This document shows positions 26,960 to 49,400 of a stretch of DNA of 64,000 nt, piece by piece. Each line of letters starts with the position of its first letter. The first letter of the stretch is position 1. The position numbers and the translations under genes are program-made. Source of the stretch: Onthophagus taurus (Eukaryota > Arthropoda > Insecta > Coleoptera > Scarabaeidae); assembly GCF_036711975.1 (NCBI RefSeq), contig NC_091968.1:3410001-3474000 (forward strand), written 5' to 3'. The notes beneath the pieces were generated by a model, which saw only the letters and a list, made by a program, of their open reading frames with translations, did no database searches and was not told where the DNA came from.

Positions 26960-28370
26960 TGAGAGATATTTGTATTGTCATTAAGTGATGCACAGAAGAA
27001 GTTTAAAAATTTTATAGTATGAAATCAAAAACTAAGCAAAACATTTATCTGCAAGGGCTGTTACAAGCTACAACTGTAGCCAAAAGACGAAAACGCAAGG
27101 AAAATGGGATGAATAAGAATAGATCGTTTCTACATTTATTAATATCGAAGAAAAAAGAATAAACGATTGTTAAAGAGCATTTGCAACTATTCATTGTATT
27201 AGCTTGGAACGAATTAAAAGAATTAAGCGTTTATTTATGAATGATGAAGTTCCTTATGATAAACGGGGTACAAATATTAAAAGAAATGCCATTGAAGAAA
27301 GCGAAAGAGAACTTGTTAGTCAAGACTCATATCTTGTCATTTTCAGTTAAAGAATCTTATTATTCTGGTAAGGAGTTCAAGTATCTAGATGCACGGCTTA
27401 ATGTAAAAACAATGTACGAGTTATTTCTTAAAAAATTTCCATGCAGAAAAATTAAGTACGGTTACTACAGTATGTTCTTTCATGACAATTTTAATTTGCA
27501 TTTTGGCATGCAACAAGTGTGAGGAATTAATCCTCAAAATCAAGAGATAATGCTAAAAGAGCCGCTGTTGCAGAAAAGGTTATTCAAGAAAGACGAACGA
27601 AGAAATTCTACAATGTTTTAAAAACGATTGCAGAAGAATGTAAAAAACGACAAGATCTTGCAGCTATTGCATTTGATTACATGCAGAATCTAAAACTGCC
27701 AGAGTGCAGTCCCTGTACAAGATCTCTTTTACCTATCTCAATTAAATGTAAGTGTGTTCTGCATTCACGACTTAAAAACAAACAAATCCTTTTTTATATT
27801 TACCATGAGGGTGTAGCTGCAAAAGGTCCTAATGAAATCACTACATTCATAATGGAGTATATAGTAAAGTATGTTTCTTTTGATGTAAAAGAACTCCAAT
27901 TATTTTCTGATAATTGTCCAGGGCAAAACTGAATCACTGCATGGAATTAACTGAAAGTGGAAGGTTTTAAAAGGTGCAGTATTACCCCTTGCGAGGACAT
28001 TCTTTTCTGCCTTGTAACAGAAATTTTGGAGTTTTATGATGTCCATACATTCACTGAACTTATTATAACTTCTAGTGCCAAAAACGCTTTTACTATAAAG
28101 AAAGTTGCAACAGAAGATATCATAGATTATAAAAACTAGTGGCCAAAATACTACAAGGTTACATGTGCTTCTGATGAAACTGAAAAATATTCTAGAAATG
28201 AAAGAACCTTTAAGCTGACTCATCCCAAAAGAGGAAAGAATATCTAGATACAATTGCCGAAACACTGCTTCAATGGGTAGAAGACGATTATAAACAATTT
28301 TACGAAGAAATTCTTGAAAGTACCAAGATCAAGGACCCCAAACAGACCAAAACTAAGTAACTGTGTTTTA
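26960..28370 (+). pseudogene. transposase-like relic of an insect DNA element
   Basis: Three decayed blocks on plus: 27241-27522 (SFSVKESYYSGKEFKYLD, then FHDNFNLHFG), 27681-27932 (LFYIYHEGVAAKGPNEITTF, LQLFSDNCPGQN) and 27957-28139. A DNCxxQN motif near the end of a beta-rich block is what I would expect around an acidic catalytic residue. I recognise the type as a recurrent uncharacterised insect repeat protein but cannot name the superfamily. Stops and shifts break it. Confidence 0.55.
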
Positions 28371-28439
28371 TGTTAACGTAAACCTTTGTTCTTTCGTGTG
28401 AAATAAAATTTTGAATTTAATGTACGTATTTATTTGAGA

Positions 28440-28847
28440 AACAACTTAGGACTTTTCTTTGGCAAAGAATTTTGAGTTTATTAAAACAAATGGCATATCA
28501 TTATTTTGCTTGTATATTAACTAAAGTACAAACCTGGGTTTGTAAATTATTAAAATTTTCTAAAAAGTAACGGTTTTCATATGAAATGTTTTTTTTTCGT
28601 TTCCTGAAATGTTATAAAAAGTGTCTTAAGTTGTTTTAGTAATTAATAAGCGATTCACTTCAACTCTCATTAAACATGATCCTGAGGTTGCGCGCGCAAT
28701 CTGCCGCCCCTTACGTCACGAAACACTCCCGCTCTTGCCCCTCGCCCAAAAACTAAAATCAAAGTATTGCAGTATAGGAAAACAGACAACCTCTTATATA
28801 TAATTAGGTTGAAATTGAAGTTAATATCCATTATACCAGTATGTTTA
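28440..28847. other. intergenic, nothing recognised
   Basis: AT-rich except for a locally GC-rich patch near 28690-28750 (GTTGCGCGCGCAATCTGCCG). No gene or complete element found. Confidence 0.5.
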
Positions 28848-28905
28848 ACGTGATAGAAAAAATTTTCGAATTTTGTTGTACTTTTACTGGTTTATTTATA
28901 TTTTT

Positions 28906-28947
28906 GTTGTCTAACTAGTTTCGGCAAAAGCCATCATCAGAGACAAC
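28906..28947 (-). ncRNA. hammerhead ribozyme-like motif
   Basis: Minus strand, 42 nt: stem I strand GTTGTCT, core CTGATGA, stem II GGC-TTTT-GCC, core GAA, short palindromic stem III ACTAGT, unpaired T at position 17, then stem I strand AGACAAC. There is one extra T before stem II. All conserved core positions are present. Penelope-like elements are known to carry such minimal hammerheads. Cleavage is not shown. Confidence 0.72.
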
Positions 28948-29489
28948 TACAAGAATGAACAATTTTTAATCAATAAGTGAAATTTAAATATGTGAATTAA
29001 CAATAAAAAGTTTTTTAAAAAATACTTACAAGTCAATGTATTTTACAGGAAATTAACATCGAAAATATAAAGCGGTGAACAAATTAAAATTATTATTGTC
29101 ACAAAATCTACTTAAAATAAACGTAAAAATTCTTTTACAAAACTTTAAAGATTTAACTCCGCATGGACATCTTTTGTAGTAGATGTTACAAGATGGTCTG
29201 AGTTCAGGTTTTTCTTTTTTCTTCTTCGTAAGAGAACAATATATAATGCGCATGTACAAAATATTTGATGACAAATATTTGGAATTTGAAATGTGAACTT
29301 TAAAATATAAAAATAGGAAGAGGTGTATAAGGATTAGGGTTCGAGAAAGGAAAAGGGGGATTGGCCGTTGGGACCCCAAAAAGTGCGAAAAATGCACGCG
29401 GACCGGATGTATTAGTCCTCTGCATTTTGGGGGAAAGGAATGGTTAAATACTTGTAAAGTGGTATTTTTAAAGAAAGTACCTGATCATT

Positions 29490-29745
29490 AAGGCATTGTG
29501 TTGGCTAAATCTGTGTTGTTATTTTTAAATTTATCTATTTCATATTATTCTAATAAACTAAGTTTAAAACCTTTGTTCTGTTTATGTAGCAACGTAACAC
29601 CCTCTTGTATGTCAAGATCATGTCTAAACATTATCATATGTCTACCAAAATTGGAATTGTCATTATGTTGGTGTTCTTTAATTCTAGTTTTGATAGATCT
29701 ACCTGTTTCACCAATATAAACCCACTCCCCCCCTTTTCCTTTCTC
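29490..29745 (-). pseudogene. GIY-YIG endonuclease relic of Penelope-like element
   Basis: The minus strand reads WVYIGETGRSIKTRIKEHQH and continues NFGRHMIMFRHDLDIQEGV. It contains the YIG half, the Arg and the EH of the GIY-YIG active site. The N-terminal GIY half is missing. Confidence 0.75.
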
Positions 29746-30365
29746 GAACCCTAATCCTTATACACCTCTTCCTATTTTTATATTTTAAAGTTCCCATTTC
29801 AAATTCCATCCCACTATAACATGGACACACTTTCACATCCCTATTAACCCCACTATATTATTTCAAAACTTTGAAATATTATATAAAATCATAAAAAGAA
29901 TTTTTTTAAAAACATTTTAATTATATTTAATTACAAAAAAAATTTTTATTTTCATGTTAGTCCTCGATAGTTTGATTTAAATGAGTTTTCAAAATACTTT
30001 CTAGTTTGAATTTAGAATTAAAATACGTCACCAAATATTTTGTACATGCGCATTATATATTGTTCTCTTACGAAGAAGAAAAAAGAAAAACCTGAACTCA
30101 GACCATCTTGTAACATCTACCACAAAAGATGTCCATGCGGAGTTAAATCTTTAAAGTTTTGTAAAAGAATTTTTATGTTTATTTTAAGTAGATTTTGTGA
30201 CAATAATAATTTTAATTTGTTCACCGCTTTATATTTTCGATGTTAATTTCTTGTAAAATACATTGACTTGTAAGTATTTTTTAAAAAACTTTTTATAAAA
30301 AACTTTTTATTGTTAATTCACATATTTAAATTTCACTTATTGATTAAAAATTGTTAATTCTTGTA

Positions 30366-30407
30366 GTTGTCTCTGATGATGGCTTTTGCCGAAATTAGTT
30401 AGACAAC
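30366..30407 (+). ncRNA. hammerhead ribozyme-like motif, second arm
   Basis: Plus-strand counterpart of 28906-28947 with the same 42-nt layout: GTTGTCT, CTGATGA, GGC-TTTT-GCC, GAA, stem III ATTAGT with one wobble pair, T17, AGACAAC. One base differs from the other arm in stem III. Confidence 0.7.
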
Positions 30408-30624
30408 AAAAATGTAAATAAACCAGTAAAAGTACAACAAAATTCGAAAATTTTTTCTATCACGTCTTATATATAAACCTTGGTACAACACCCTAGGCAA
30501 GTTATTTTAAAAGATGGCATGTTTAGTCAAGATTCCAAAATGGTATAACACTTGACATTTTTCTTTTCCTACAAAATATTATTGCTTGTTTTTCTGCAAA
30601 AACTGCGTTATTTAAAAAATTTAT

Positions 30625-31690
30625 ACTAGACATAGAACTAGAAACATTCCGGTTAGCTGTATCTCTCTTAAGACGGCTGGTAGGTGATAGGAAGCGCTAG
30701 TTAGCATAAAATATCACTATGTTACATATTTTTATTGCACTAAAACTAGAACTAATACTACACCTAGAACTAGAAACATTCGATACTTTCTAAGTCTAGG
30801 GTTAGTACTAGTTTTACACTATCACTAGAACTAACACAAGACCTAGAACTAGAATCATTCGGGTTTAGCCGTCTTGAGAGACGTGCGGCTAAACTCGAAT
30901 GTTTCTAGGTCTCGGTCTTGTGATAGTTCTAGTTTTACATTATCCCTAGAACTAACACAAGACCCAGAACTAGAATCATTCGGGTTTAGCAGTCTTGATA
31001 GACGTGCGGCTAAATCCGAATGTTTCTAGTTTTAGGTCTAATGCTTGTTCTGGTGACAGTGATAGGTAGTGCTAGTTAGCATAAGATATCACTATGTTGC
31101 ATATTTCTGTTGCATTAAAACTAGAACTAACACTAGACCTAGAACTAGAAATATTCATGTAGCCGTGCGTCTTCAGATCGATACTTTCTAGTTATAGGTC
31201 TAGTGTTAGTTCTAGTTTTACATTAGCACTATCACTAGATCTAACACAAGACCTAGAAATAGAATCATTCGGGTTTAGCCGTCTTGAGAGACGTACGGTT
31301 GAATGCGAATGTTTCTAGTTCTAGGTATAATGTTTGTTCTGGTGACAGTGATAGGTAGTGCTAGTTAGCATAAGATATCACCATGTTGCATATTTTTATT
31401 GCCCTGAAACTAGAACTAACACTAGACCTAGAACTAGAAAGTATCGGGTTTCTAGTGCTAGGTCTAGTGTTAGTTCTAGTTTTACACTAGAACTAAAACA
31501 ATACCTAGAACTAGATTCATTCGGGTGTAGCCGTCTTGAGAGACGTACGGCTAAATCCGAATGTTTCCAGTTCTAGTATTAGTTCTAATTTTACACTAGC
31601 ATTATCACTAGAATTAACACAAGACCTAGAACTAGAATCATACGGGTTTAGTCGTCTTGACAGACGTGCGGCTAAACCCGAATGTTTCTA
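30625..31690. repeat. hairpin satellite array between genes 2 and 3
   Basis: About seven degenerate 127-bp hairpin units, interrupted by the module GTGCTAGTTAGCATAAGATA near 30690, 31075 and 31360. Open frames inside it are low-complexity Ser/Arg strings without meaning. Confidence 0.88.
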
Positions 31691-31699
31691 GGCGGCCTG

Positions 31700-32406
31700 C
31701 AACATCTCAAATTTTCCTAATGTAATTTTTGCTTAAAACTGACCAATTGCAATCCTTCTTTTTGGCGCTTCAATTTGAAAACACTCCTCCGAATTAAAAA
31801 AAAATACAGTATAATGCTGTGGGTATATGTGTGTCCACAATATAATAAGATAATATATTTTAATAATATTAATAATATTTTAATAAATGATAAAATGAAC
31901 CGTACACATTAAATGAATGATTATAATTTGAAGGACTAATCATATGAACGAGCGATTGATTATTATATTTGATTGATAATGGATTGATAATAATTTTATA
32001 AATAATAATAATTTTATATGGAAACGTGGTTTTGTTTGTACATGTCGTGTGCACAGCATGCTACAGCCACTTCCCCTCCTATAAAGATTAATAAAAAGAG
32101 GAATCCACCGTATTCCTCTTTTTATTAATTAATGAAAAAAAAAATTCATATTTAAAAATTGAAAGTAACTTTTTTTTGAATTTTTATATTATGAGAATTG
32201 ATTACCCCGCTGTGGTGACATGTTGAATTTTCTTTTAAAAGAAATGCTGGTTTAAGGTTGTTGATGTTAACAGCTACTTCCTTGTTATTTTTGAAAATTA
32301 CAAAATATTTCGAAAATGTTTTTATCATTTTAAATGGGCCTTCATATCTTGGTGTTAAAGAGGGTTGAATCCCATTAATTTTGACAAAAACAAATTTTGA
32401 AATGAA
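31700..32406 (-). mobile_element. probable 3' part of a Ty3/gypsy element
   Basis: The integrase frame ends just above this stretch and reading continues on minus without a recognised domain. A purine-rich run (CACAGCGGGG on minus, near 32205) could be a polypurine tract just before an LTR. I did not find a second LTR, so the boundary is uncertain. Confidence 0.4.
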
Positions 32407-33580
32407 TTAATCTTTATGAATAAATGGTTTTTGGTTAGAATGAAAAGCTGTGTTTACTGCTTTCAAACAAGACAATGTTTCTCGTAAACTTGATAGCAAT
32501 GGATCAGATTCCAAAGGGTGTTGAATATTAACAAAAATTTCTCCTGGAAGCCTAAGTGGTTGACCGTATACAAGTTCGGCAGATGAACAACCTAGGTCTT
32601 CCTGAAGAGATGATCTGAGGCCTAGGAAAACCAAGGGAAGATCATTGTTCCACCTCGTAGTGTTACCTCTGGCAGTTATGGTTGTTTTTAAAGAACGGTG
32701 AAACCTTTCTAAAATTCCGTTGCTTTGACGTGTTCCTAGAAGGGTGTGAAATTTTGAAAAGAGTTTTGATTCGAATTGTCGTTCCTGATCATAGGTTATA
32801 GTGCTAGGAATGACAAATCGGCTGAAATAATGCCGAAACAAAGTATCTAATAAAAGAAGTATAGCAATAGAAGAAGAACCAATATCTTTGAGAGGAAAAG
32901 CTTCTGGCCAACGCGTGAAACGATCTATTACGGTGAGCACATATGTGCAGCCAAGGGACGGAGTGGGAGGACCGACCAAATCAATGTGGATATGATCGAA
33001 TCTTAATTTTGGGTTCGGAATTTTACTAATAGGTGATTTTGTGTATCTTTGAACTTTTGTTTGTTGACATCGCAAATAGGTTTTTGTTCATAACTGAATG
33101 TGTTTTGTCATGTGAGGCCAAAAGAATCGTGTTTTGATGATGTGTGTAGTAGCGCGAATACCAGGATGTGTTAAGTTGTGAAATTTGTTGAAAATTGTTT
33201 TACGAAATTTTTGTGGTATGTATGTTCGAGGATTGTTTGTTGAAATGTCGCACCAAAGCTTTACATCTGAATGTGATGTTGTTTGTTGCGATAGGTTATA
33301 TTTAGTAGTTTGTGTCTTTGAGTATTGTTTGTTTAGTAAATGTGTTAATTCTGTATCATTAAATTGTCTGTGTGTCAGGGTACTGTGAATTTAGAGAATC
33401 AATATTTGTTCTGGACAACGTGTTCGTTACAATGTTTGATTCTCCTGTAATGTACCTGATATCTGATGTGAATTGTGTTATGTAACTAAGATATCGTGTC
33501 TGACGTGGAGTTTTTTCTGTGTTAGAAAAAATTGTGTTGATTAGAGGTTTGTGGTCAGTGTATACCACAAATTTACTTTA
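32407..33580 (-). mobile_element. Ty3/gypsy retrotransposon: RNase H tail and integrase
   Basis: Minus strand. 33568-33359 reads VYTDHKPLINTIFSN, then TRYLSYITQFTSDIRYITGE, the RNase H end of a Ty3/gypsy polyprotein. 33075-32407 reads an integrase core: RFDHIHIDLVGPP (first Asp), a second Asp in PSTITYDQERQF, and the Glu in NGILERFHRSLK, a DDE triad. About 280 bp between the two are decayed. The 5' gag and RT portions are absent. Confidence 0.85.
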
Positions 33581-33719
33581 ATTTATTACTACATGCTACA
33601 AGTACCTAAAGATACATTTTCAAAAATATGACTATTACCACTTAACTAAGAGACATGGAATGTTTTTCTTATTTTTACCAGAACTGGTATGGCTTTACGT
33701 TGAGTTTCGAGACACTCTG

Positions 33720-33727
33720 TATATAAG
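33720..33727 (+). promoter_or_regulatory. TATA box candidate, gene 3
   Basis: TATATAAG 70 bp before the gene 3 ATG. An initiator-like CCAGTT lies about 26 bp downstream, near 33744, giving a leader of about 50 nt. Confidence 0.55.
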
Positions 33728-33796
33728 GAAAATTGACTGATCTCCAGTTAATTAATCATTAATTTTGAAAGATGATGAATTTGTCAATTAAAAAAA

Positions 33797-36700
33797 ATGG
33801 TTGAAAATCTTACTTTCTCTCCGGAAGTGAAATCACCTGCCGATTTTATCCTAGTTCAAAGTAGAATTGTATCGGAAACTGCTGAAATTCAAAATACCAA
33901 GTTTATAAATAATTTGAAGAAAGCAGGATTAACGGTGGAACCTGTTGATGGTGTTAAATACCCGCAATATATATTTTTTAAACTTTACGCCTCCGATGAA
34001 GCCTTAGCACACCTCGCTGTGATTCACGGTTTATTTCCAACGTTTAAACATGACAAAACAATGCCGAATTATACGAATAATTGTAGATTTTTTAAAACGC
34101 CGATTAGTTTGAAGCCGAATTATTTGAATCCTTTATTTTCAAGATGCAGGTTTTGATTATTTATTTTTTTTTAATGTAATATTTTTTTATTATTTTTTTA
34201 GTAATTCAGTTAGGGGACAAGAAAACACAACATTTACCAGCGCCGAAAGAATAAGTTTGATCAATTGTGTTTTAACTAGAACGAAATTTGGGACATCCCC
34301 GGATGAATATGGACTCGGAAAGTTATTGGCCAACAATAATTTTGATGATGCTTTTCCTTTACATGATGGTCCAGATGAATGGAGTGAATCGGGTCCGTTG
34401 AATGATAGACAAGTATTAATTTCTTTTTGTATGGAACCGTTGAAATTGAATTATTAAAGATTTTAGCTAAATTCTGGGGAAATTGGAGGATGTTTTATAA
34501 ATTTCAACCAATTCATATCATTTATAAATATTATGGATCTGAAATTGCTTTTCATTATGCCTGGTTAGAATTTTACACGAAATGTTTGATTATTCCGGCT
34601 GTTTTGGGTATATTCGTATTTTTTGGAGGACATTATGATTTATATTTATCGGAGAATGGTGTTGAAAGAGTGTATTAAAAATGATTTACTATCATAGTTT
34701 AATTAATTAAAATAATTTTATTTTTAGCGACGAAATTTGCAATTCGAATATGAAAATGTGTCCAACTTGCACTCACCAACACTGCTATTATAAAGAATTA
34801 AAAGATTATTGTGAAACAGCTGTAATGGCGTATCATTTTGATAATATTTATACGTTTTCTTTTGGCGTTTTTATAATAGTTTGGGGTTTGTTGTTCTTTT
34901 CATTTAAATTTTAGGAGTAAAATTGATTTTTAATTTAAAGCTACTGTTTATATTGAATTATGGGACCGAGAAGAATGTATTTTACATTATACTTGGAATT
35001 TACATAGATCTACACAACAAATTGATGAATTGTAATAAAATTTATCATATTAAGTGATTTAATTATTTTATTAATTTGAATCATTTTAAGGGCTAATTAC
35101 CGGGAAAGAGTTAAAAAATATAAAGAATACAATAAATATACTAAGACCGAGGAATATTACACACCGTTTTTTATGAAAACTCGAAAGTATTTTTATTCAT
35201 TTCTTGTTCTTTTTAGTATTGTAAGTAAATCGTTTAATTCAAAAAAAAAATAATTTCTTTGCAATTTCCAGATTATATTTTTGTTACTTACGTTAACGAT
35301 AATTTTAATTTCAATTCATTTTATAAAATACTCAATCATTCGGTATCGTATTAAAGTCGCCGAGATTTACATGCGCCCAATATTGGAACTTTATTCTTCA
35401 TTCATGTCGATTTTTCTTATGAAGATGTACGCTCCGGTGAGTTTTTTTACCTAAACATTACTTCTTGTAACTTTTATTTTTATTTCTAGCATTTAAATAG
35501 GATTGCTAAAGCGTTAACCGACGACGAAATTCATCGAACCCAAGATGATTATCTTAACTCGTTCGTTTTTAAGAGTTACATCTTATCGTTTTTTAATAGT
35601 TATAGCATGCTATTCTATAAAGCTTTCTTTAAAGACTTTTGTTACACAAATCCGAGCGATCACAAGATTTATAATCAAATGTTTGGGATCGCCTCGGATC
35701 TTTGTGCCCCTGCGATTGGTTGTATAATTAATTTATCAATTACTGTAGGATTTACGGTGGGTAAAAATCATATTTTGGTGTTGGTTTACAAAAGTTATCT
35801 TATGGTGTAAGTAATTATTTTATTTTTAAACTGATGTGTTGATTTGGTTTTTTTTAGGTATTTAATTGATACTTTTAAATATATTATGGGAAAAATAAAG
35901 AAAATTCCGTCAGTAGCAATGTTGGATATTCCTCAATGGGAGCAAGAATTTTGTTTGCGACCGACATGTTCGATTTTTTTCGTTTCAAGTTTTAGTACAA
36001 TAGGTAATCATCATAACTGATATTATTTAACATTTCTTGGTCACGCTTCATAAAATGGGTAAACAATCCCGACCAATCTTAACGTTTCTTGGTTACGCTT
36101 ATTAAAATGGGTAAACAATCCCGACCTATCTTAACATTCATAATTTTTATTTGCTTTTAATATATTTTTGATCTCCTTGAAAATGTTGAAACCATGGACG
36201 AAATTTGTTGCTTTTGCAAGTACTTAATGGTAACAATCGGGAAACGGAGCATGTTATCAAAAAACTTTTATAACAAAAGTTGTAGCAAATTTTATTCTTA
36301 GCAATATTGCTTTGTTTCACTTTTGCTCTTACATGCGTCAATATCGAGAAAAATACGAAAATATGAAAATTTGATGAATTTGTTGCTTTTGCAAGTACTT
36401 AATGGTAACATTCGGGAAACCGAGTATGTTATAAAAAAACTTTTAGAACAAAGGTTATAGCAAATTTTATTCTTAGCAATATTGCTCTCTTGCACTTTTA
36501 CTATTATATGCGTCAATATCGAGAAAAATACGAAAATATGAAAATTTCGTTATTTTGCAAGGTAATGGTAACACTCGGAAAATGGAGAATGTTATAAAAA
36601 AACGTTTAGAGTAAAAGTTGTTGCAAATTTTATTCTTAACAATACTGCTATCTTTCACTTTTGCTCTTAGATGCTTCAATATCGAGAAAAATACCAAAAT

Positions 36701-39700
36701 ATGAAAATTTCATGAATTTGTTGCTTCTGCAAGTACTTAATGGTAACAATCTGGAAACGAAGCATGTTATAAAAAAACTTTTAAAACAAAAGTTGTAGCA
36801 AATTTTATTCTTAACAATATTGCTCTGTTGCACTTTTACTTTTAGATGCGTCAATATCGAGAAAAATACGAAAATATGAAAATTTCATGAATTTGTTGCT
36901 TTTGCAAGTACTTAATGGTAACAATCCGGAAACGGAGCATGTTATCAAAACACTTTTAGAACAAAAGTACTTACGACAACGAAAACAAAATCTTATCAAA
37001 AAATAGAATATCGGGACTGGCACGTAATAGAAAAGAATGGACATAAAATAGATAAAACCAGAGGTAGATCACTGGTACTAGCCAATCCGTCCGTAAAAAT
37101 TGTCAAAGACAACCCCCCGTCCCTCAATAATCCCGATAATGAATGCCTACATTCGAAATTTCCCTTCAAGAACGAACTCTTACACGTTTTCCTAGCATAT
37201 ATTTATCCCCATTCCGCCGTAGAAGAAAACATACTGACCAAAGCAGCTCAATTTAAATATTTAACAATAACTGGCGACTTCAATCTAACCCTCCCGATAA
37301 GCAAGCGTGTACATTTTCTCCTATCTAATTCGCATTTCATAGAACACCTTACAAAACCTACCTCCATCATGTCGGCTAACGACACGACGCGTCATTTACT
37401 ACCCTTATAGTATGTTTAAAAGTATTAGTTAAGATGTTGTCCCATTCGCCTAATAGCAACCCTGTGAAGTTCCAATAAATAATATAAATGGTATAATCAT
37501 TACCCTAGAATTTGATGTATACTTTGCAGAGAAATCATAAGTTAGTCACAATTCTTTCTTCTAAAATAAGATACAGATGATATTTAAATATAGATTTATT
37601 GTTAAGTAAAAAATAATGCTTCCTTTTTGTTAAACTACACCTAATAATGCTTACACTTATAATAGAAAGTTAATTAATATTTATTTTATCAGAAGCCAAT
37701 CAATGGCTTCTGAATCTAAATCTAACTTGCTTTTTTCTACAACATGTCTAATTGATGATATATAAGGATCATAGGTGTATAGTAACGTATTGAAAACATC
37801 TTGATTGCTGGCAATCCTTGAACATTTCCGAGCGTTATGTAACCAGTATTTTTTGTAATCTTTATTTTTAACTTTAATCTAAAATTAGAACTAACACTAG
37901 AAATTGTCGGGTATTGCCGTGCGTCTTTTAATAAAAGATTTGACGTTTCGGATGCCATGTTGCAACCTTCTTTAGAAACTGGTTCGAAGTGACGAGATCA
38001 AAAATCGGTAACTATATATAAGTCGGAAAAACTAATTAATAATCAGTTAACGCTAATTACAAGCTAATTAATAACTAATTGCGTCGCGTTCGGTGTGAGG
38101 CGGGAAGCGGTCTTCGTGTTCACCACCATCTTCCATGTTCTGCTAAGCTCCCAGCCATCCTCTCTGTTGACGTTATTTTTATGTCGGTGGATCTCTATGG
38201 CTTCTCTTGTCAGTCTTTGGTAGTATCTGTTGTCCCTAGCCAGCACCTTTGTTTGTTCGAAGTCTATTCGGTGCCCCTCTGCATGGCAATGTTCCGCAAC
38301 CACCGACTGCTGGGTCTTCTTCAGCCTTACATCCCTCTCATGCTCCTTGATGCGGCACTCGACGTTGCGTCCAGTTTGGTCAACATAAACCTTCCCACAA
38401 CTACACGATAGTCGATAGACTCCCGCTCCTTTTAATGGAGTTAGTTTGTCCTTGGCTATCGGGAGTGTGTTCCGAATTTTGCTGACCGTGCCGTACCGCA
38501 CCACGATGTCGTTCTTCTTGAGGTGCCTAGCAATTCGTTCCGTTACACCTGAAATATAGCGAAGACAGATAAATCCAAGTGGTTTTCTACTTACCGTGTC
38601 CTCTTTCTGCTTTCACTGCTTGATGGCCTGGTTGATGTCCCTCGAAGTGTATCCATTCTTCTGCAGCACGCCTCATAGAAAGTGTTGCTCCTTCTTCAAG
38701 TTCTCTCCTTCACATAGTCTCGCTGCTCGCTGAAATAATGTACGGATCACGGACCTCTTCTGTTGGGGATGATGATGTGAACATGCCTGTAAATACCTGT
38801 TGGTATGAATCTTCTTTCGGTATACACCAAGTTCTATATCTCCATTTATCGTCCTGGTGACCAACACATCTAGGAAAGGTAGTTTTTTGGCAGTTTCTGT
38901 TTCCATGGTGAACTTAATCATAGGATGTTGAGAGTTCAAGTGATCCAAGAACTCTTGGAGCCGTTTTTAACCATGTTGCCATATCACAAACGTGTCATCC
39001 ACATATCGGAGCCATAGTTTTGGTTTCCACTGGCTCTTCTTCACAGCGTCCTCTTCGAATAATTCCATGTAGAAATTAGCTATAACTGGCGATAGTGGAG
39101 ATCCCATGGCTGCCCCTTCCAACTGCTCGTAAAATTCTTCTTTCCAGCTGAAATACGTCAACGATAAGCAATACTCCACCAGATCTGGCACGTATTCTGG
39201 TAAACCCTCCGGAATGAGTTTTCGGCGAAGACCCTCTACAGCATCCTTAACTGGTACCCTAGTAAAAAGGGATTCCACATCGAAACTTACCAACATATCC
39301 CCAGCCTCCAGCTTTACACCTTTTACCGATTCCACAAATGTGTAGAATCCCTGACATACGATTCCGTGTTACCTGTAAAGGGAGACAGAATCTTTGCAAG
39401 ATGTTTGGCCAGCTGGTATGTTGGGGAGTTGATGGCGCTGACGATAGGGCGGAGGGGGACGTCTGGTTTGTGAATCTTCGGTAGTCCGTAGATTCTTGGT
39501 GGTACCGGCTTTCTGCTGTTCTGCTGGAATTCCTGTGGATTTTATTATTTCCTTCATTTTTCTTACGATTTTGTCTGCGGGGTCCTTCTTTATCTTCCTG
39601 TAGGTGGCTGGGTCCAGTAGGTTCATCATTTTGTCGTCGTATTCTTTCCTGTTCATAACAACGGTGGCATTCCCCTTGTCTGCTAATAACACGACGATTT

Positions 39701-42700
39701 CTGACTTTTCTTTTATAGATCGGAGTGCGTTCTTTTCACCAACCGTCAAGTTGGATTTTGGTGGTTTTGCTGACTTCAATACTCTCGCAACTTCTTGTCG
39801 GATCTCTTCGGCTTTCAGTGCAGGCATCCCTCGAACAGCTGCTTCCACTTCGCTGATGATTTCCTCCTTTGGGACCTTCTTCTGAGCGATTGCGTAGTTC
39901 AATCTTTTGGCGAGCACAGAGGTTATTATTAGTTATTAATTAGCTTGTAATTAGCGTTAACTGATTATTAATTAGTTTTTCCGACTTATATATAGTTACT
40001 AATTTTTGATCTCGTCACTTCGAACCAGTTTCTGAAGAAGATTGCAACATGGCATCCGAAACGTCAAACCTTTTATTAAAAGACGCACGGCAAAACCCGA
40101 AAGTTTCTAGTGTTAGTTCTAGTTTTAGTTCTAATTTTAGTTTAATTCACACCGGCCGTGAAAGCCTTCGTATTTATTTTATTTTTAGCTTCTTGTGCAT
40201 CTTCTGAAAATTGTTCTACTGGTAATACAGCATATTGTATGATGCTTTCACCGTGTATAAGTATTTTGTGTACTGAAGCAGGCATGTAGTACCATTTATA
40301 CTATAACTTTACATAAAGTTCTACTGTTTTATATGCGTATTCCTCAAACTTTTTGGCATCTGCGGCTCTTTCACTGGCTAATGTTTGAAGAATTATGGAA
40401 AACCTTTTAATTAAGTCCTCATCTACTCCTGTAATATTTGCTGTGTACGAAAGATTAGAAAAGAATCTTCTAGGAGTGTTACCATCGTTGTAGTTTTCAG
40501 TACCCTTGTCCAGGCTTATCAATAATTACACCTACTTCATCTCTAAATTGGTCTTGTACTTGTTTTTTTAAAATTTTTTAAATGAAATTTTGTACGACAT
40601 ATGAAGAACCAACTCCATAAATCTGATCCAAATGTGTAAAGATAAGAAACCAAATTTATATGTATCTACCCGAGATGGTCTTGCTGTTACCTTCTCCAGA
40701 TAATTCATTTCCGTTGGTTTGGCAAGGCATACCATACAAGTAGATGTAGAAGGAGTGTCTGTTTATGTGCATACTTTTCCATAGATCATTGTAAAAAATA
40801 ATTGGTAGTTTACACTAAATTGCTTAACACCTACCATTATAAGTGTTGACGCTAACTTATCAATTTGGGATTCTATATTTGAAGCTAGAGACATCTGGCT
40901 TCTCTCCGCAGTTTCTTTTGCAAACCCTATAAATATCGGTCTACAGAATCGAGTTGAAAAAGGAGTTGGGTTATCCCATAATATTGTTGTTGTACGCAAA
41001 GAAACTAATGATGAAATAAACAAATGAGAATCGGTTATTTGATCTGTTTCACCTGGCAGAATTTGTTTATATTGGCTTGACCCATCACATCCCCACTTAC
41101 ACATTAATATGAGATCAGTTACCGTAAGATATTTTAACACTTCCTCTGATTATGTTTTAACAAGTCTCTTGGTGGTGTGGTCAAGTAAACTTTGTAATGT
41201 TATACTGGCACTTGGTGATGTTACAGTTATCGATAGAGGATCTGGGTAACAATCTTTCTTTGCGCTCTAAACTTGGTAATAACTAGATAATAATTTACAT
41301 CCTTGTGGTGCAGCTTATGATCGTAATATATTATACTGATACCTAGATAGTCCTATATCTGCTATCAGAGCCAACGAATTATCTTTACTCAATGGACTTT
41401 CCATACCTTCATTTTGGAATAATACACGATAAACCAAATCTTGCCGTTCCATTGATATATTTTTTATACTTTAATATTTACGTTCGTAATTTGCCCTTCT
41501 GCTTGTAGTCCTTGCAAAATGTATGACATAATTGGTCCAAACCTTCAGCCTGCAGCAAGCGAGTTGAATTTCTTCTCTTTGTCCTTTTACTGGAATCATC
41601 AAATGTTTTACACGGACGGCCTATTTTTGAGATTACTGCAGACGTAGATGGTAGATTTTCCTCTTTTAGATTCACAACGAAATCGTTGTCTAACCATTCA
41701 CAATTTTGCTCTAAAAAACGTTCTTTCGTTCTATGAAATGCAGACTATTTAATTTTGAATGACGATAGCAGACGTTGGTGAATATTTTGAACAACACAAT
41801 TGAGATCTTCTTCAAATAAATTAAAACGTCCTGCGATATAATTACGAGCAGAAGAAATGTGTTTCGCATGTTCAATAAATTCGAGGCATAATTCACGAGG
41901 CACACTCTTCAATAGTAACATATAACCATTTCATTTACAAACTGTCCAAAGATATATCGAATCTAATACCATGCTAAAAAGACGACATACAGACAATATA
42001 AGAAGACGAAGGACATAAATTTAAAGACAGAATCAACCGTCTCAATAAGCAAATACATAAAGAAGTAAAAGTATACCAAACTAACCAATGGTTACAAATT
42101 TGTTCAGAAATCGTGGAATACAAAGGGCCCTAATACTGGAACAAGATTAAGAAAATCACTAAATACAAGAGATCCTGTTCGATCCCAACACTAATGTATA
42201 ACAAAACCGAGTGGGTATCTGACATACAGATATGCAACGCTATGGCAGAATATTTTCTAGACGCATTCACACCGAGAGAAAACACGATTCGACAAAGACC
42301 ACCAGAATTTTATCGATAACTGGTTCGCAAGGTATCTGACAATACTAATACAAAATAAGTGTATCACAGATATTAGCGAAGGCGAATACATTATACATAC
42401 ATATTCATAAAGGAAAAAACACCGCACCACGGCATGACCTGATAACAAAACTTACTTTAAGAAAACTAGATCCAGAGGTTCAGAACTAATGGTGGGTAAA
42501 CACCCGGTAAATATTTTTTTGTAAACAGCCTAGGAATACACCCGGGGTCTTCGGTATCGGTGGCAAAGACAACATCACTATCCTCTGTGCAAGACAATTG
42601 TTGTGCCCTTCACCAGGAAGCGAAAGTTGGATGGACTAATCCGCCCAACTATCCAAGGTGAAGAAATTCCTTTCTCAAAGGAAGTCAAATATCTAGGAGT

Positions 42701-45685
42701 AATCCTAGACAAAACCCTGTCATGGAATGGACATTTGTGGGGAGTTTTGCACAAAGCTAGACTATCCTTGTGGACTTGTCGCAGTCTTTGTGGAAAAAAA
42801 TTGGGGTCTTACCCCTGAAAGACTGTACTAGCTCTATGTAACTGTGGTTAGACCTATGATCACATACGGAGCAGCAGCCTGGTATAGGAAAGTCCGACAG
42901 ACTTAGTTATCAGTCACGAATTCAACGAATAGCTGGATTGGCAATCTCTGGTACGATAGGCACAACGCCAACTCTAGCAATGGAGGTTCTGCTTGGCCTA
43001 TCTCCTCTGCATTTGCATATAGAGAAAGTGGCTAGAACAACCATTTACAGATTTAAGCAATATGCTCAAAACTGTTCCGACATGTCCTACCAATGGGCTG
43101 CGGAAGACATTATAAGCACTGATATTGTGCTATTAATGCCGTCAGATTTGGCGGTATTACTATCAGTGATTAATGCTCGATACCAGATTGAGAGTCTCTC
43201 TGATCTGGGTCCCGGGTCACTCTGGGGTTGCTGGCAATGAAGCCTCAGATAAGCTACCACGAGTTGGCAGCGTTGAAGCGTTTGTGGGGCGGGAACCAGC
43301 AGTTGGTGTATCATTTGCGATGGCCAAATATAGGATTGGACTGCGGGCTGAAGAGAGACTTCGCCTGTAGACCAGTTCTCCTGGAATGAGACATGCTAAG
43401 GTGTTTATTAACATCGCCACTGTCCAACCAGGGAATATTTTAGGACTTGCCCGTAGTAGTATAAAAGTTCTAATGGGTGTTTTTACTGGGCACTGCCGAT
43501 TAAAAGCACACCTCAACTTGTTGGGTTTAGCCGACGATGTTGAATGCCGACTATGTGTGGAGGAAGCAGAGACGGTTGAGCATGTTTTATGCCACTGCCC
43601 TGCCGTTAACCGTATCAGATTCTCGATTTTTGGGTCGCAGTTTATCTCCTCAAAGAATCTGAATGACCTTTCGCCGAGCAAGGTATTAATGTTCGTTAAG
43701 AGCATTGGACTGCACGGTGAAATTTGATAACGATATCTATCGGGGTACAATAGATCCTTAGGGTCGCGGTGCAAGGTTGGTTGGTCCGCCTACCCGATAT
43801 GTATTCTATGTAATGTAATCCTCTGTGCTTCCTTCGATGGATTCGTTTGTAGTTGCCTTTGTTTGTTCCCCCGTTTCTTTCTGTTACTTCAGAATTAGTT
43901 AATTTCCAATTATGGGAAATAAAAGTAATTTTTCCAGCCCTCTCTGTTTCCAGCCTATTCCTTTTCTTGCTATGTATCCACGAAAATGTGTTAAATGTCC
44001 GTTCTGTGTCCACGGACGACACTGGGGCTGATAAAATCCTAACAGCAACCTTACTCAGATTGGAGCTGCTACACAGGCCCTTCCACCATGCAAATGGATT
44101 CATGTTTACTACACTGGTCCACATGAATCTTTTTGCCCACACTCCATCATTTGATTTATAATTTACCAAATCTGCTATTACATCCAAGTGCATTAACTGG
44201 GATAGGTTGTGTATAAATTTCTTTGCGTCTATTTCCTCTGACGTCAACAAACTGCTTCCTTTAGAACAAGGATTCAGTAGTGCAGCGGCAAGATGAATAG
44301 GACTTATAGCAAATATAGGACTTGTAGCATCCTCTTCTTCAGATGTGCAAATATTTGAAATGCTACGTATAATTTTTAGTTCTATTTCAGAGAGTCCGCC
44401 GTGCACTTTGTGGATCATTGGGGTGTTTGATATCCCACAAGGAACTTTGCGGCGCCAAATTTATCAACAATCTTCTTTATTTCACTCTTAACATATTCTG
44501 CTGTGTGTTTGCTAAACCCATTCGGGTTTTGATATTACAAAATTTGCTATACCCTCATTTCGTAAATTACTCCATCCATCACATTGCAAATGAAGAATTT
44601 CAGCCTGTTTCAGTTGCTGATCAATTATACTTTTCATATCTGCATATTCTATATCCAAAAAAGCTGTGGATTTTCTTTCTGGTTGGCAAGGTATATGACG
44701 GTCTAAGCATTTTAAAAAATTTCTCCCAAAGTGAGTATCCACCCATAGATAAAGGGGAACCAGTTGCATATATGGCAAGAGAAATTGATATTGCTGCAAA
44801 TTACACTTTGGGATACACTACACAACATTCAAAATTAAAAGCTATACGAATAGTCGAATAAAGACGAACCAAATAAATTATGTTTTTAATTAAATTTATT
44901 TTTTAGTTGTGGAATATGGATTATTAACATTTTTCGGCGCAGCAGCCCCATTTCTTCCCTTAATAGCATTAATTAACAACATCGTTGAAATGCGAGCAAC
45001 GGCCATGAAGTTAGTTAAAAAATCAAGAAGAAACGTTCCGAAACGAGTGCTTGGATTAGGATCATGGAAATGGGTTTTAGTCGTTATAACTCGGTTTTCC
45101 TTTTTTATAAGTGTAGTTCTGAGGTGTTACTTAAAAAATATGTGTATTATAGTTACAATTTTAGGGCGCAATTGTTTCTTTTACATCATCTTTCGTTCAT
45201 AGAACCGTTTATTACTTTGAACACGGTGATTTGAAGGGATTCGTAAACGATACTGTTTCTGGTGAATATTTAAATTATTAATTTTTTTATTCAAATTAAT
45301 TTAACGATTTTTTTTTAGTGTTTTTAATCGAAGATTATAGAGATGATATGGAGGATAGACTGAAAGAAAAATTTTCTGATACTCACACTTGTTATTATCC
45401 TGGACATAAAAATAGTTTTAATCATACCCATCCATACCAAGCATCTGATAGATTTTACGAACTTCTCGCTATAAGATTACTCACCGTCGTTGTCTATATC
45501 GTAAGATATTTTAGATTAATTTATTTAAAATTATTTTTTTTTTATTTTAGCATCTAATTTATTTTGTTAGTAGTATTTTATCGTTTTGGATTTCAAAGGA
45601 ACCTGCATCAATTAGAGAACATTTAGCGTACGATGAAATGGTTAAAAGAACGAAAGAAGTAGAAGCAATAACGGGAAATGTTTAA
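33797..45685 (+). CDS. anoctamin (TMEM16) family protein, gene 3
   Basis: Thirteen exons: 33797-34149, 34202-34412, 34460-34671, 34728-34885, 34941-35031, 35091-35220, 35272-35436, 35490-35806, 35858-36003, 44907-45112, 45165-45261, 45319-45500, 45551-45685. They join to 800 residues ending TAA. The dimerisation domain opens [11 protein letters not shown]; then come [48 protein letters not shown] and [12 protein letters not shown]. Helix 7 (SFSTIVVEYG) lacks both acids matching E702/E705. Helix 8 keeps the first Glu but has Thr where D738 is expected. The N-terminus is closest by eye to gene 4. Intron 9 is 8.9 kb and carries a satellite, a Penelope element and Transib, LINE and hAT relics. 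A small extra intron (45262-45318) splits an exon that is whole in genes 2 and 4. Confidence 0.93.
36130..36970 (+). repeat. 165-178-bp tandem repeats, relative of the 153-bp satellite
   Basis: Five units are marked by ATGCGTCAATATCGAGAAAA at about 36330, 36508, 36672 and 36846. Shared boxes with the 1-2732 array include AAAATATGAAAATT, GGAGCAT and ACAAAAGTTGTAGCAAA. The two are diverged branches of one family. Array in gene 3 intron 9. Confidence 0.85.
36975..37410 (+). mobile_element. LINE endonuclease fragment
   Basis: Plus-strand frame reads [20 protein letters not shown], then [13 protein letters not shown], an exo-endonuclease core with the GDFN block, and [16 protein letters not shown]. 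It is truncated at both ends, and its left end is fused to the satellite. A continuation of the same type of LINE appears at 41940-42520. Confidence 0.72.
37411..37865. other. intronic sequence, nothing recognised
   Basis: AT-rich part of gene 3 intron 9 with no supported feature. Confidence 0.5.
37938..37979 (-). ncRNA. hammerhead-like motif, left terminus, core mutated
   Basis: Minus strand, 42 nt, same layout as the right terminus, but the core reads CTAAAGA instead of CTGAAGA and stem I is weaker (AAAT facing GTTT). The conserved G5 is lost, so it should be inactive. Confidence 0.6.
40028..40069 (+). ncRNA. hammerhead ribozyme-like motif, right terminus
   Basis: Plus strand, 42 nt: GTTT, CTGAAGA, a stem-loop GATTGC-AACATG-GCATCC with mismatches, GAA, self-complementary stem III ACGT, C17, AAAC. 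The strands GTTT and AAAC form stem I. All core positions are kept. The 2-bp palindromic stem III suggests action as a dimer, as reported for Penelope hammerheads. Confidence 0.72.
40180..41930 (-). pseudogene. Transib/RAG1-like transposase relic
   Basis: Minus strand, in broken order of frames: N-terminal [17 protein letters not shown] near 41700, [18 protein letters not shown] (41675-41478), the first catalytic block [14 protein letters not shown] and [17 protein letters not shown] (41140-40763), [14 protein letters not shown] with the helix that follows (40522-40301), and a tail [17 protein letters not shown] with [11 protein letters not shown] near 40200. CDG and the Glu of EDAQEA match the expected acidic residues of Transib/RAG1 enzymes. 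Stops, shifts and a gap make it dead. Confidence 0.72.
41940..42520 (+). mobile_element. LINE fragment, linker before RT
   Basis: Decayed plus-strand reading with fragments such as [20 protein letters not shown] and [13 protein letters not shown], typical of the linker between endonuclease and reverse transcriptase. It may continue the piece at 36975-37410, the two being split by the Penelope and Transib insertions. Confidence 0.55.
42560..43740 (+). mobile_element. non-LTR retrotransposon 3' end with RNase H
   Basis: 42603-42818 reads [20 protein letters not shown], the post-active-site block. 42938-43130 holds [19 protein letters not shown]. 43170-43280 has the RNase H tail [20 protein letters not shown]. 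43386-43727 ends with a zinc knuckle ([19 protein letters not shown]). An RNase H after RT points to the I, R1 or Loa group. 5'-truncated, several stops. Confidence 0.82.
43790..44860 (-). pseudogene. hAT transposase relic
   Basis: Minus strand. 44799-44512 reads a core segment ([19 protein letters not shown] and [16 protein letters not shown]). 44418-43860 reads the C-terminal dimerisation region ([20 protein letters not shown], then [20 protein letters not shown]), the signature of hAT enzymes. A frame break separates them and no intact ends were found. It lies directly upstream of gene 3 exon 10. Confidence 0.83.
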
Positions 45686-45703
45686 TTAAATTTTAAAAAA
45701 AAT

Positions 45704-45709
45704 AATAAA
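45704..45709 (+). terminator. poly(A) signal, gene 3
   Basis: AATAAA 19 bp after the TAA stop of gene 3. Confidence 0.65.
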
Positions 45710-45719
45710 TTTTTTATTT

Positions 45720-45884
45720 GTCTATAATTTGCAGTTATAACTTGCAATGTAGAATGTTGCTATACTTTGCAGTGTGCAGTTTGCAGCTATGACGCAGGTT
45801 ATAATTTATAGCTATCGATTGTAGGTATAATTGTCTATAGCTGCTATCTGCAGTCTTTCGTGAGTAACCATGATGTAATCAGTA
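45720..45884. repeat. degenerate GCAGT/TATAG-rich stretch
   Basis: Irregular repetition of TTTGCAGT, GTTTGCAGC and TATAGCT-like words between the gene 3 poly(A) signal and the satellite. No function visible. Confidence 0.4.
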
Positions 45885-46298
45885 GCTAAAGTTTTTTAAG
45901 ACTTAATCGGCAAAATTAGAAATAATTGTCGATCATTTCAAAAATTTATTTCTCAAAAACTAAAAGCGATTTTTCAAAACGGCTTGTTGTATCCAAAAGA
46001 GGATACTTTAAATAATAATTGGTGGTATTTCTACAAGGATCCTTCAAGAAATGAATTTTATAGCGAATTATGAAGGTTATCGATTAAAATTGCAACATCG
46101 AAAATTTTACCAAAACTTCAAATATTTTTTTCTCAAAAACTAAAAGTTATTTTTCAAAATGTGTTGGTTCATTAGAAAGAGGACACTTTTATTAACACTT
46201 TGGGAAATTTTCATACTCATATTCCAAGAAATGGATTTTATACGAATTTTTAAAACTTAATCGGCAAAAACTGCAAAATGCGAAAAAATTGTTGATCA

Positions 46299-46494
46299 TA
46301 TAAGTACGAAGGCTTTCACGGCCGGTGTGAATTAAACTAAAATTAGAACTGAAACTGGTTCGAAGTGATTTTTTCACAGTTTCTGAAGAAGGTTGCAACA
46401 TGGCATCCGAAACGTCAAACCTTTTATTAAAAGACGCACGGCAAAACCCGAAAGTTTCTAGTGTTAGTTCTAGTTTTAGTTCTAATTTTAGTTT
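46299..46494 (+). mobile_element. solo Penelope-like terminus with 13-bp target duplication
   Basis: 196 bp begins near CGAAGGCTTTCACGGCCGGT and ends TTCTAATTTTAGTTT, matching the termini of the element at 37866-40175. The 13-bp word AATTGTTGATCAT, satellite sequence, is present at 46286-46298 and 46495-46507, so insertion was into a satellite unit. It carries an intact hammerhead-like core. Confidence 0.88.
46379..46420 (+). ncRNA. hammerhead ribozyme-like motif in solo terminus
   Basis: 42 nt on plus: GTTT, CTGAAGA, stem II GGTTGC-AACATG-GCATCC with one T-T mismatch, GAA, ACGT, C17, AAAC. It has the best stem II pairing of the three related copies and every conserved core base. Confidence 0.75.
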
Positions 46495-49400
46495 AATTGT
46501 TGATCATTTTAAAAATTTATTTCTCAAGAACTGAAAGTGATTTTTCAAAACGGCTTGTTGCATTAAAAAGAGGGCACTTTAATTATTGGTGATATTTCTA
46601 CAAGGATCCTGCAAGAAATTAATTTTATAGCGAATTTTGAAAATTATCGATGAAAATTTCAACATCGAAAATTTTATCAAAATTTCAAATATTGTTTTCT
46701 CAAAAAGTAAAAGTTATTTTTCAAAATGTGTTGGTTCATTGGAAAGAGGATAATTTTATTAACATTTTAGGAAATTTTCATACTCATATTCCAAGAAATG
46801 GATTTTATACTAATTTTTAAAACTTAATCGGCGAAAACTGCAAAATGCGAAAAAACTGTTGATCATTTCAAAAATTTTTTTCTCAAGAACTGAAAGTGTT
46901 TTTTCAAAACGGCTTTTTGCATTAAAAAGAGGATACTTTAATTAGTAATTTTTGATATTTCCACAAGGATCCTTTAAGAAATGAATTTTATAGCGAATTT
47001 TGAATGTTATCGATTAAAATTGCAACATCAAAAATTTTATCAAAACTTCAAATTTTGTTTTCTCAAAAGCTAAAAGTTATTTTTCAAAATGTGTTGGTTC
47101 CTTGGAAAGAGGACACTTTTATTAATATTTTGGGAAATTTTCGTACTCATATTCCAAGAAATCGATTTTATACAAATTTTTAAACCTTAATCAGCGAAAA
47201 TGGCAAAATTCGAAAAAATTGTCGATCACTTCAAAAATTTATTTCTCAAGAACTGAAAGTGATTTTGCAAAACGGCTTTTTGCATTAAAAAGAGGATACT
47301 TTAATTAGTAATTTTTGATATTTCCACAAGGATCCTTTAAGAAATGAATTTTATAGCGAATTTTGAAAGTTATCGATTAAAATTGCAACATCGAAAATTT
47401 TCTCAAAACTTCAAATTTTGTTTTCTCAAAAGCTAAAAGTTATTTTTCAAAATGTGTTGGTTCCTTGGAAAGAGGACACTTTTATTAATATTTTGGGAAA
47501 TTTTCGTACTCATATTCCAGGAAATCGATTTTATACAAATTTTTAAACCTTAATCAGCGAAAATGGCAAAATTCGAAAAAATTGTCGATCACTTCAAAAA
47601 TTTATTTCTCAAGAACTGAAAGTGATTTTGCAAAACGGCTTTTTGCATTAAAAAGAGGATACTTTAATTAGTAATTTTTGATATTTCCACAAGGATCCTT
47701 TAAGAAATGAATTTTATAGCGAATTTTGAAAGTTATCGATTAAAATTGCAACATCGAAAATTTTATCAAAACTTCAAATTTTGTTTTCTCAAAAGCTAAA
47801 AGTTATTTTTCAAAATGTGTTGGTTCCTTGGAAAGAGGACACTTTTATTAATATTTTGGGAAATTTTCGTACTCATATTCCAGGAAATCGATTTTATACA
47901 AATTTTTAAACCTTAATCAGCGAAAATGGCAAAATTCGAAAAAATTGTCGATCACTTCAAAAATTTATTTCTCAAGAACTGAAGGTGATTTTGCAAAACG
48001 GCTTTTTGCATTAAAAAGAGGATACTTTAATTAGTAATTTTTGATATTTCCACAAGGATCCTTTAAGAAATGAATTTTATAACGAATTTTGAAAGTTATC
48101 GATTAAAATTGCAACATCGAAAATTTTATCAAAACTTCAAATATTGTTTTCTCAAAAGCTAAAAGTTATTTTTCAAAATGTGTTGGTTCCTTGGAAAGAG
48201 GACACTTTTATTAATATTTTGGGAAATCTTCGTACTCATATTCCAAGAAATCGATTTTATACGAATTTTTAAACCTTAATCGGCGAAAATGGCAAAATTC
48301 GAAAAAATTGTCGATCATTTCAAAAATTTATTTCTCAAGAACTGAAAGTGATTTGTCAAAACGGCTTGTTGCATTAAAAATAGGATGTTTAATTAATAAT
48401 TGATGATATTTCCACAAGGATCCTTCAAGAAATTAATTTTATAGCGAATTTTAAAAATTATCGATGAAAATTGCAACATCGAAAATTTTATCAAAACTTC
48501 AAATATTGTTTTCTCAAAAGCTAAAAGTTATTTTTCAAAATGTGTTGGTTCATTGGAAAGAGGATACTTTTATTAACATTTTGGGAAATTTTCATACTCA
48601 TATTCCAAGAAATCGATTTTATACGAATTTTTAAAACTTAATCGGCGAAAATTGCAAAATTCGAAAAAATTGTAGATAATTTCAAAAATTTATTTCTTAA
48701 GAACTGAAAGTGATTTTTCAAAACGGCCTTTTGCATTAAAAAGAGGATACTTTAATTAATAGTTGGTGATATTTCCGCAAGGATCCTTCAAGAAATTAAT
48801 TTTATAGCGAATTTTGCAACTTATCGATCAAAATTGCAACATCGAAAATTTTATCAAAATTTCAAATATTGTTTTCTCAAAAACTAAAAGCTATTTTTCA
48901 AAACAGGTTGGTTTATTGGAAAGAAGACACTTTTATTAACACTTTGGGAAATTTTCATATTCATATTCCATGAAATCGATTTTATACCAATTTTTAAAGC
49001 TTTATCGGCGAAAATTGAAAAATTCAAAAAAATTGTCGATCACTTCAAAAATTTATTTTTCAAGAACTGAAAGTGATTTTTCAAAACGGCCTGTTGCATT
49101 AAAAAGAGGATACTTTAATTAATAATTTTTGATATTTCCACAAGGATCCTTCAAGAAATTAATTTTATAGCGAATTTTGAAAGTTATCGATGAAAATTGC
49201 AACATCAAAAATTTTTTCAAAACTTCAAATATTGTTTTCTCAAAAGCTAAAAGTTATTTTTCAAAATATGTTGGTTCCTTGGAAAGAGGGCACTTTTATT
49301 AATATTTTGGGAAATTTTCATACTCATATTCCAAGAAATGGATTTTCTACGAATTTTTAAAACTTAATCGGCGAAAATTGCAAAATTCGAAAAAATTGTC

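Follow-up and report, generated by a model that had tools for sequence, protein, structure and literature searches.

Probable minimal hammerhead motifs near the 3' ends of two Penelope-like element families in Onthophagus taurus

Probable hammerhead motifs and their carrier elements

The stretch of DNA considered here (the window) comprises 64,000 nucleotides of the Onthophagus taurus genome (NC_091968.1, positions 3,410,001 to 3,474,000) and holds five 42-nt segments which an earlier note had described as hammerhead-ribozyme-like motifs of two families of Penelope-like elements (PLEs). All five have been located at the coordinates and on the strands claimed, with their parts in the claimed order, namely a stem I strand, CTGANGA, a stem II hairpin, GAA, a tiny palindromic stem III, H17 and the complementary stem I strand, and their grouping into two families is correct. 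In the following rows, E-values refer to R1, a covariance model built from seven motif types absent from the window.

28906..28947, minus strand: family 1 motif; GTTGTCT, CTGATGA, T, GGC-TTTT-GCC, GAA, ACTAGT, T17, AGACAAC; E 0.0064
30366..30407, plus strand: family 1 motif; stem III is ATTAGT, with one G.U pair; E 0.14
37938..37979, minus strand: family 2 motif; CTAAAGA (G5 to A), stem I GTTT/AAAT; E 0.0026
40028..40069, plus strand: family 2 motif; intact core, stem II with an A.C mismatch; E 1.4e-4
46379..46420, plus strand: family 2 motif; core intact; best R1 match, E 4.4e-5

In all likelihood, these motifs are minimal type I hammerheads placed near the 3' ends of two PLE families, in the pseudo-long terminal repeats (pLTRs), and they are predicted to cleave. 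Very probably, the motif is of a kind already described from PLEs, and it occurs in this genome in many variants, with paired letters that vary in concert. The hammerhead reading put forward in the earlier note is supported by covariation in further motif types, by the R1 model, trained without the families of the window, and by linkage to PLE proteins.

Family 2 motifs share the layout GTTT, CTGAAGA, A, a hairpin around AACATG, GAA, ACGT, C17 and AAAC, and the copy at 46379-46420 follows it with GGTTGC-AACATG-GCATCC (one T.T) as its hairpin. At 40028-40069, the A.C mismatch affects the second stem II pair, while stem I of 37938-37979 finishes in a G.U pair. The core CUGANGA...GAA with H17 is present in four of the five copies, for which the description as core-intact stands; it fails for 37938-37979, because G5 is lost. 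A descriptor devised once the motifs were known (CTGANGA, a stem II no shorter than 2 bp, 0-2 free nucleotides after A9, GAA, a loopless 4- or 6-nt stem III, H17 and a 4-bp stem I) retrieves three of the five motifs and no other place in the window, at a chance rate of 0.0033 per dinucleotide-shuffled window (one match in 300 shuffles). The two missed are 40028-40069, owing to its stem II mismatch, and 37938-37979, owing to its lost G5 and the G.U at the end of its stem I.

The motifs lie in the pLTRs of elements with a reverse transcriptase (RT) and a GIY-YIG endonuclease, the latter scoring under the Pfam cut-off. In family 2, the motif spans the start of the PLE reading frame; at locus L047 of the genome, the ATG in loop II opens the frame MASETSN..., which continues into the PLE open reading frame (ORF) with no stop, and in L042, the sole other such copy seen, the frame is broken. 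The carriers in the window and their ORF remnants are as follows.

28803..30464: element A, two 5'-truncated family 1 PLE copies placed head-to-head; arms 28803-29728 (minus strand, long tail) and 29729-30464 (plus strand, short tail), 97-99% complementary
29422..29721, minus strand: remains of a decayed GIY-YIG endonuclease in element A; reads VYIGETGRSIKTRIKEH... for 58 aa up to the first stop; Pfam E 0.00061, below the curated cut-off
37871..40177 (outer limits approximate): element B, two family 2 PLE copies placed head-to-head; arms to 39927 (minus strand, short tail, with the broken RT/GIY-YIG ORF) and from 39928 (plus strand, long tail); inverted arms 94%
38080..39927, minus strand: PLE ORF fragment (RT and GIY-YIG) of element B; RVT_1 E 5.1e-10, GIY-YIG E 0.0033, below the Pfam cut-off; several stops
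46300..46494: element C, family 2 PLE, 195-bp head-to-head pair in a satellite array; minus-strand arm 46300-46368 (long tail, no hammerhead) and plus-strand arm (short tail)

Copies in the genome and covariation

The 290.8-Mb assembly (33 contigs) contains 1463 places matching the family 2 core at no more than three mismatches and 119 exact places of the family 1 hairpin, with no match to the reversed pattern in either case. A wider pattern is found at 181 places (reversed control, 1), which include several further types and a few family 2 variants. By our own grouping, there are about a dozen motif types in the genome. The counts given below refer to the matches listed, 100 for each pattern. 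For family 1-type copies, these represent 98 distinct contexts (the 100 listed places plus overlaps, with partial-context loci excluded), selected by a search pattern demanding an intact core and stem II; for the wider pattern, they represent 39 places with both flanks out of 40 loci chosen from the listed matches, L152 being excluded as it has no upstream flank.

At least four consecutive stem I pairs are found in 75 of the 98 listed family 1-type copies and in 27 of the 39 listed wider-pattern places. The paired strands differ widely: besides GTTT/AAAC of family 2, the variants GTCT/AGAC, ACTC/GAGT, TAAC/GTTA, AAAC/GTTT, AATC/GATT, GTAC/GTAC and GTTT/AAAT occur. Among 13 hand-picked representatives, 11 have at least four consecutive stem I pairs, while sets with re-dealt 3' strands average 2.4 and none in 20,000 reaches 11; the representatives include sister types, and this permutation test is not fully independent. 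When the seven types absent from the window are aligned, 87.2% of the cells are paired, versus 70.0% after shuffling, and the covariation score is 0.537, versus 0.248 after shuffling and no more than 0.177 after sliding. Stem II is likewise supported by covariation, and the types GGGAA-TAG-TTCCC and GGGA-ATAG-TCCC keep the hairpin in different frames. The covariation of stem I proposed in the earlier note is weak from the two window families alone but upheld in most, though not all, of the further types.

One of these further types, at L003, consists of a head-to-head pair (about 890-970, minus strand, and 1315-1380, plus strand) with stem I TCGG/CCGA, stem II GGCTA..TAGCC, stem III ACCGGT and A17. 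A frequent type, CTGATGATAGTTTCACGAAAACGAAACGTC (L117, L118, L119, L120, L155 and L156), has the core and the palindrome, no stem I and two free nucleotides after A9, and is perhaps a lost or altered ribozyme. The pattern CTGANGANGGNNNNCCGAAAC occurs at two places in the genome, neither with a stem I.

Stem III and proposed dimeric hammerheads

A perfect loopless stem III palindrome is found in 86 of the 98 listed family 1-type copies, as ACCGGT in 48, ACTAGT in 37 and ACATGT in one, the last with twelve stem I pairs. Stem III varies as a unit, its inner letters (CG, TA or AT) always being complementary to themselves, as would be expected of two ribozymes that pair with each other. Stem III of family 2 is ACGT; in the wider-pattern types this sequence is uninformative, because the search pattern demanded it. 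Since a lone copy cannot close a palindrome of only 4 or 6 nt that has no loop, two copies would pair through stem III to form a double hammerhead. Cleavage of both RNAs would then follow H17, which is T17 in family 1 and C17 in family 2. Dimer action and the requirement for a palindromic stem III have already been published for PLE hammerheads, in passages of PMC7761336 and PMC6466107. Consistent with this proposal, self-cofolding of the 28906 copy gives a double hammerhead as the minimum, at -28.6 kcal/mol versus -12.6 for the monomer.

Are these motifs only fossils, inactive in every living copy of the two families in this genome? The window copies are truncated with broken ORFs, 37938 has lost G5, and the palindrome is damaged in 12 of the 98 listed family 1-type copies. 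However, palindrome, H17 and at least four stem I pairs are retained together in 68 of the 98 (copies preselected for core and stem II), and spread from sources with intact motifs therefore fits. We consider the fossil explanation unlikely.

Several observations weigh against the assignment to hammerheads. The covariance check with Rfam hammerhead models suggested in the earlier note came out negative: cmscan of the window at the gathering score returned no hammerhead match, and neither did permissive scans (E-value mode) covering 28000-47000 and the surroundings of two motifs. A scan of ten loci with other motif types of this genome returned no hammerhead either, and because these are also unmatched, the library apparently lacks the minimal type; the miss thus seems a property of Rfam rather than of the window copies. 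The R1 model ranks the five motifs 1, 2, 3, 4 and 6 among 21 matches in the window (weakest E 0.14), and rank 5, above the weakest motif, is an unrelated stretch at 24549-24603. This stretch does not contain the CGAAACGTC block and has been dismissed as a chance match. Stem I is also incomplete in places, with 12 of the 39 listed wider-pattern places (mainly types AAAC/GGAG and AAGC/GACT) and two of the 13 representatives having no 4-bp stem I.

The core itself departs from the canonical hammerhead, in which stem II follows straight after A9 and stem III is closed. Here, stem III is loopless, and stem II is separated from A9 by one free nucleotide in 12 of the 13 representatives and by two in the other, a nucleotide absent from the canonical core. 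This nucleotide is mostly T, and A9-T-G therefore reads ATG. A study by De la Pena and Flores from 2001 reportedly deals, by its title, with an extra nucleotide in a viroid hammerhead core, said to lie at the same place. Folding speaks in the same direction: none of the five window motifs forms a hammerhead as a single copy, the double hammerhead of the 28906 copy has an extra A14-U17 pair, and the self-cofolds of the other four motifs have other minima, so that one in five reaches the double form.

Finally, there is no clear genomic footprint of cleavage: element ends coinciding with the cleavage site of family 2 were found at four places, versus one and none at two shifted controls; on inspection, L157 alone is a possible true 5' end, and L160 resembles a repeat-mediated deletion. 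By appearance, L158 and L159 are internal losses of the motif, with the 3' limit of the loss at the cleavage site, as the search pattern demanded. In these two arms, and in 46300-46368 of the window, the motif is gone and the flanks are kept.

Insertion structure

The 3' ends of elements A, B and C all point outward. Element A is bounded by the target-site duplication (TSD) TCTTATATATA (28792-28802 and 30465-30475) and element B by a candidate TSD, TTTATTTTTA (37861-37870 and 40178-40187), an AT-rich word with five occurrences between 28000 and 47000. A 13-bp TSD, AATTGTTGATCAT, surrounds element C (46287-46299 and 46495-46507). The motif at 46379-46420 had been taken for a solo terminus, which it is not: 46300-46368 is an inverted second arm minus its hammerhead, AATTGTTGATCAT encloses both, and because other satellite units hold the site uninterrupted (e.g. 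62611 and 63667), the motif belongs to one arm of a 195-bp pair.

The same arrangement recurs in the genome. Among listed family 1-type matches (100 of 119), neighbors have their 3' ends outward in 18 of 18 cases within 2 kb and in 18 of 21 within 5 kb; for listed family 2 matches (100 of 1463), the corresponding counts are three of four and five of seven. All 18 listed family 1-type head-to-head pairs, element A included, have a long 3' tail on one arm and a short one on the other (11 TTTT pairs scored by script and seven others by eye), and after merging pairs of equal letters the script gives 16 of 16; long tails are found on 36 of 96 single ends. Elements B and C obey the same rule by eye. 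TSDs of 9-14 nt flank 10 of the 11 TTTT pairs, as scored by script on this type, and L091 has the TSD AATAGTTATT by eye. The pairs following the tail rule are L013, L018, L025, L030, L037, L063, L067, L069, L071, L084, L091, L094, L096, L101, L102, L104, L108 and window 28803-30464. Least familiar among our observations is this strict long/short rule, with respect to literature searches on hammerheads and PLEs, none of which was aimed at the rule alone.

Proposed mechanism and alternative roles of the motif

From what is shown directly, namely the sequence with its covariation and palindromes, the insertion structure and the linkage to PLE genes, we infer that the motifs cleave, that they act as dimers, that both target strands prime reverse transcription and that the ribozyme serves to release units from tandem transcripts. 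The window copies are dead 5'-truncated insertions, which would have formed head-to-head by reverse transcription from both target strands. Because both start sites lie 3' of the cleavage site, the inserted templates were either uncut or re-joined at the ribozyme. This agrees with PAc, the Poseidon element of Anolis carolinensis, in which dead ribozymes did not reduce insertion, cleavage being dispensable in vitro according to passages of PMC11167929. The likeliest use of the ribozyme would be to free units of tandem transcripts through dimer cutting.

Alternatively, the motif might be kept for pairing over cutting, its core being partly vestigial or regulatory, a reading to which we give somewhat less credence than to the fossil one. 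In detail, and with the same small likelihood, stem III would join two PLE RNAs or units in a dimeric protein complex, each templating one nicked target strand, which would produce the head-to-head pairs. The outward orientation of listed family 1-type neighbors (18/18 within 2 kb, 18/21 within 5 kb) and the one long and one short tail of each of the 18 listed pairs are in line with such a role, as is the finding that TTTT-type arms are nearer to their own partner than to arms of other pairs (0 of 20,000 permutations). According to passages of PMC11167929, moreover, the PAc protein acts on both target strands by cutting and extending them, its predicted form is a dimer, and RNA with a dead hammerhead still inserts in vitro. 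However, the catalytic core letters, unneeded for pairing alone, are kept over many types. For the GTAA type, the likeness between partner arms is weaker (1206 of 20,000, the short arms being untrimmed in this comparison), and such likeness could be explained by one template used twice or by gene conversion between arms, and listed family 2 neighbors within 2 kb are outward in just three of four cases.

Another possibility is that the letters are conserved as the N-terminus (MAxxETS) of the PLE ORF. Read from the ATG in loop II, the family 2 motif gives MASETSN. The TTTT type of family 1 would give MAFAETS, then a stop, but GTAA, TTAA and ATAA loops place a stop right after ATGGCN, and the GGGA-ATAG-TCCC type is frame-shifted relative to its sister type. 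Moreover, the ATG comes only after CTGANGA and after the 5' strand of stem I, and complementarity of stem I is not predicted by coding, which makes this explanation very improbable. Least credible of all is a C/D box small nucleolar RNA (snoRNA), in which TGATGA and CTGA would resemble boxes C and D: the Rfam matches over 28906-28947 (SNORD33, 16.5 bits, gathering 44; SNORD50, 14.5 bits, gathering 42) are far under gathering, and the covarying stems are left unaccounted for.

Comparison with known systems

PLE-associated minimal hammerheads are reportedly the subject of Cervera and de la Pena in 2014 and of Lunse, Weinberg and Breaker in 2017. The satellite hammerheads of newt and axolotl have a longer stem I with loop contacts. 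Like the motifs studied here, they have a short stem III, and in passages of PMC7229834 they cut efficiently only as dimers; unlike them, they belong to small non-autonomous repeats (retrozymes), whereas the motifs of O. taurus are found in autonomous-type PLEs.

PLE hammerheads are described, in passages of PMC7761336, PMC6466107 and PMC6155905, as minimal type I motifs in the pLTR with a diminished stem III and thousands of metazoan copies, for which dimer cleavage is proposed or shown and both a palindromic stem III and a tandem arrangement are required. The O. taurus motifs resemble these, as described in the passages, in their pLTR site and diminished palindromic stem III. As for the tandem arrangement, the window pairs are inverted, and a sense motif lies 5' of the ORF at two of 20 loci (L042 and L047), after sequence resembling the 3' region of other copies.

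In PAc, following passages of PMC11167929, the ribozyme is located at the pLTR-ORF junction, the ORF begins at stem II, and reverse transcription has two start sites downstream of the cleavage site, which define the 'tail'. The junction position and the two tail-defining start sites 3' of cleavage are shared by the elements studied here. In contrast to PAc, the family 2 ORF starts in loop II and family 1 motifs run into a stop; furthermore, the PAc start sites are reported in vitro without strand difference, whereas each of the 18 pairs here uses one of each.

Similarly, endonuclease-containing Penelope elements of Adineta vaga form head-to-head inverted pLTRs with TSDs of 8-10 bp and an optional tail on one pLTR, and self-priming on an antisense template has been proposed for them (passages of PMC3846280). 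Inverted pLTR pairs, TSDs and a tail on one pLTR are thus common to both. Copies are far more numerous in O. taurus, where 18 of 18 pairs are one-long-one-short, and the Adineta vaga paper has no occurrence of the word hammerhead.

Surroundings of the elements

Satellite-like arrays with a 363-bp period occupy 45905-50952 and 61545-64000, element C lying inside one of them. TTCTAG-rich palindromic repeats are found at 9927-10675, 15956-16417 and 30787-31691, and the family 2 PLE tail TTCTAGTTTTAG is similar to them. The microRNA and snoRNA matches from Rfam, several of which fall within these repeats, are below gathering and have been set aside. The segments 3935-5036 (minus strand) and 44900-45690 (plus strand) resemble what we take to be exons of membrane-channel (anoctamin-like) genes.

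Significance for Penelope-like elements

The role of PLE hammerheads is called unknown in a passage of PMC7761336. A single genome in which the two window families match the search patterns at more than 1,500 places, with about a dozen motif types and clean target duplications, provides a ready data set, suited to testing dimer action through palindrome covariation and to linking it to the mode of PLE insertion. As an outside chance, slightly fainter than that of the pairing role, the palindromic hammerhead could be primarily a template-dimerization device, in which PLE RNAs paired through stem III would load a dimeric PLE protein, the tails would come from two start sites, one per nicked strand, so that insertions would be head-to-head with a long and a short tail, and cutting would later free or retire the templates. 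If true, such a device would account at once for the ribozyme, so far unexplained, and for the mirror-image layout of PLEs.

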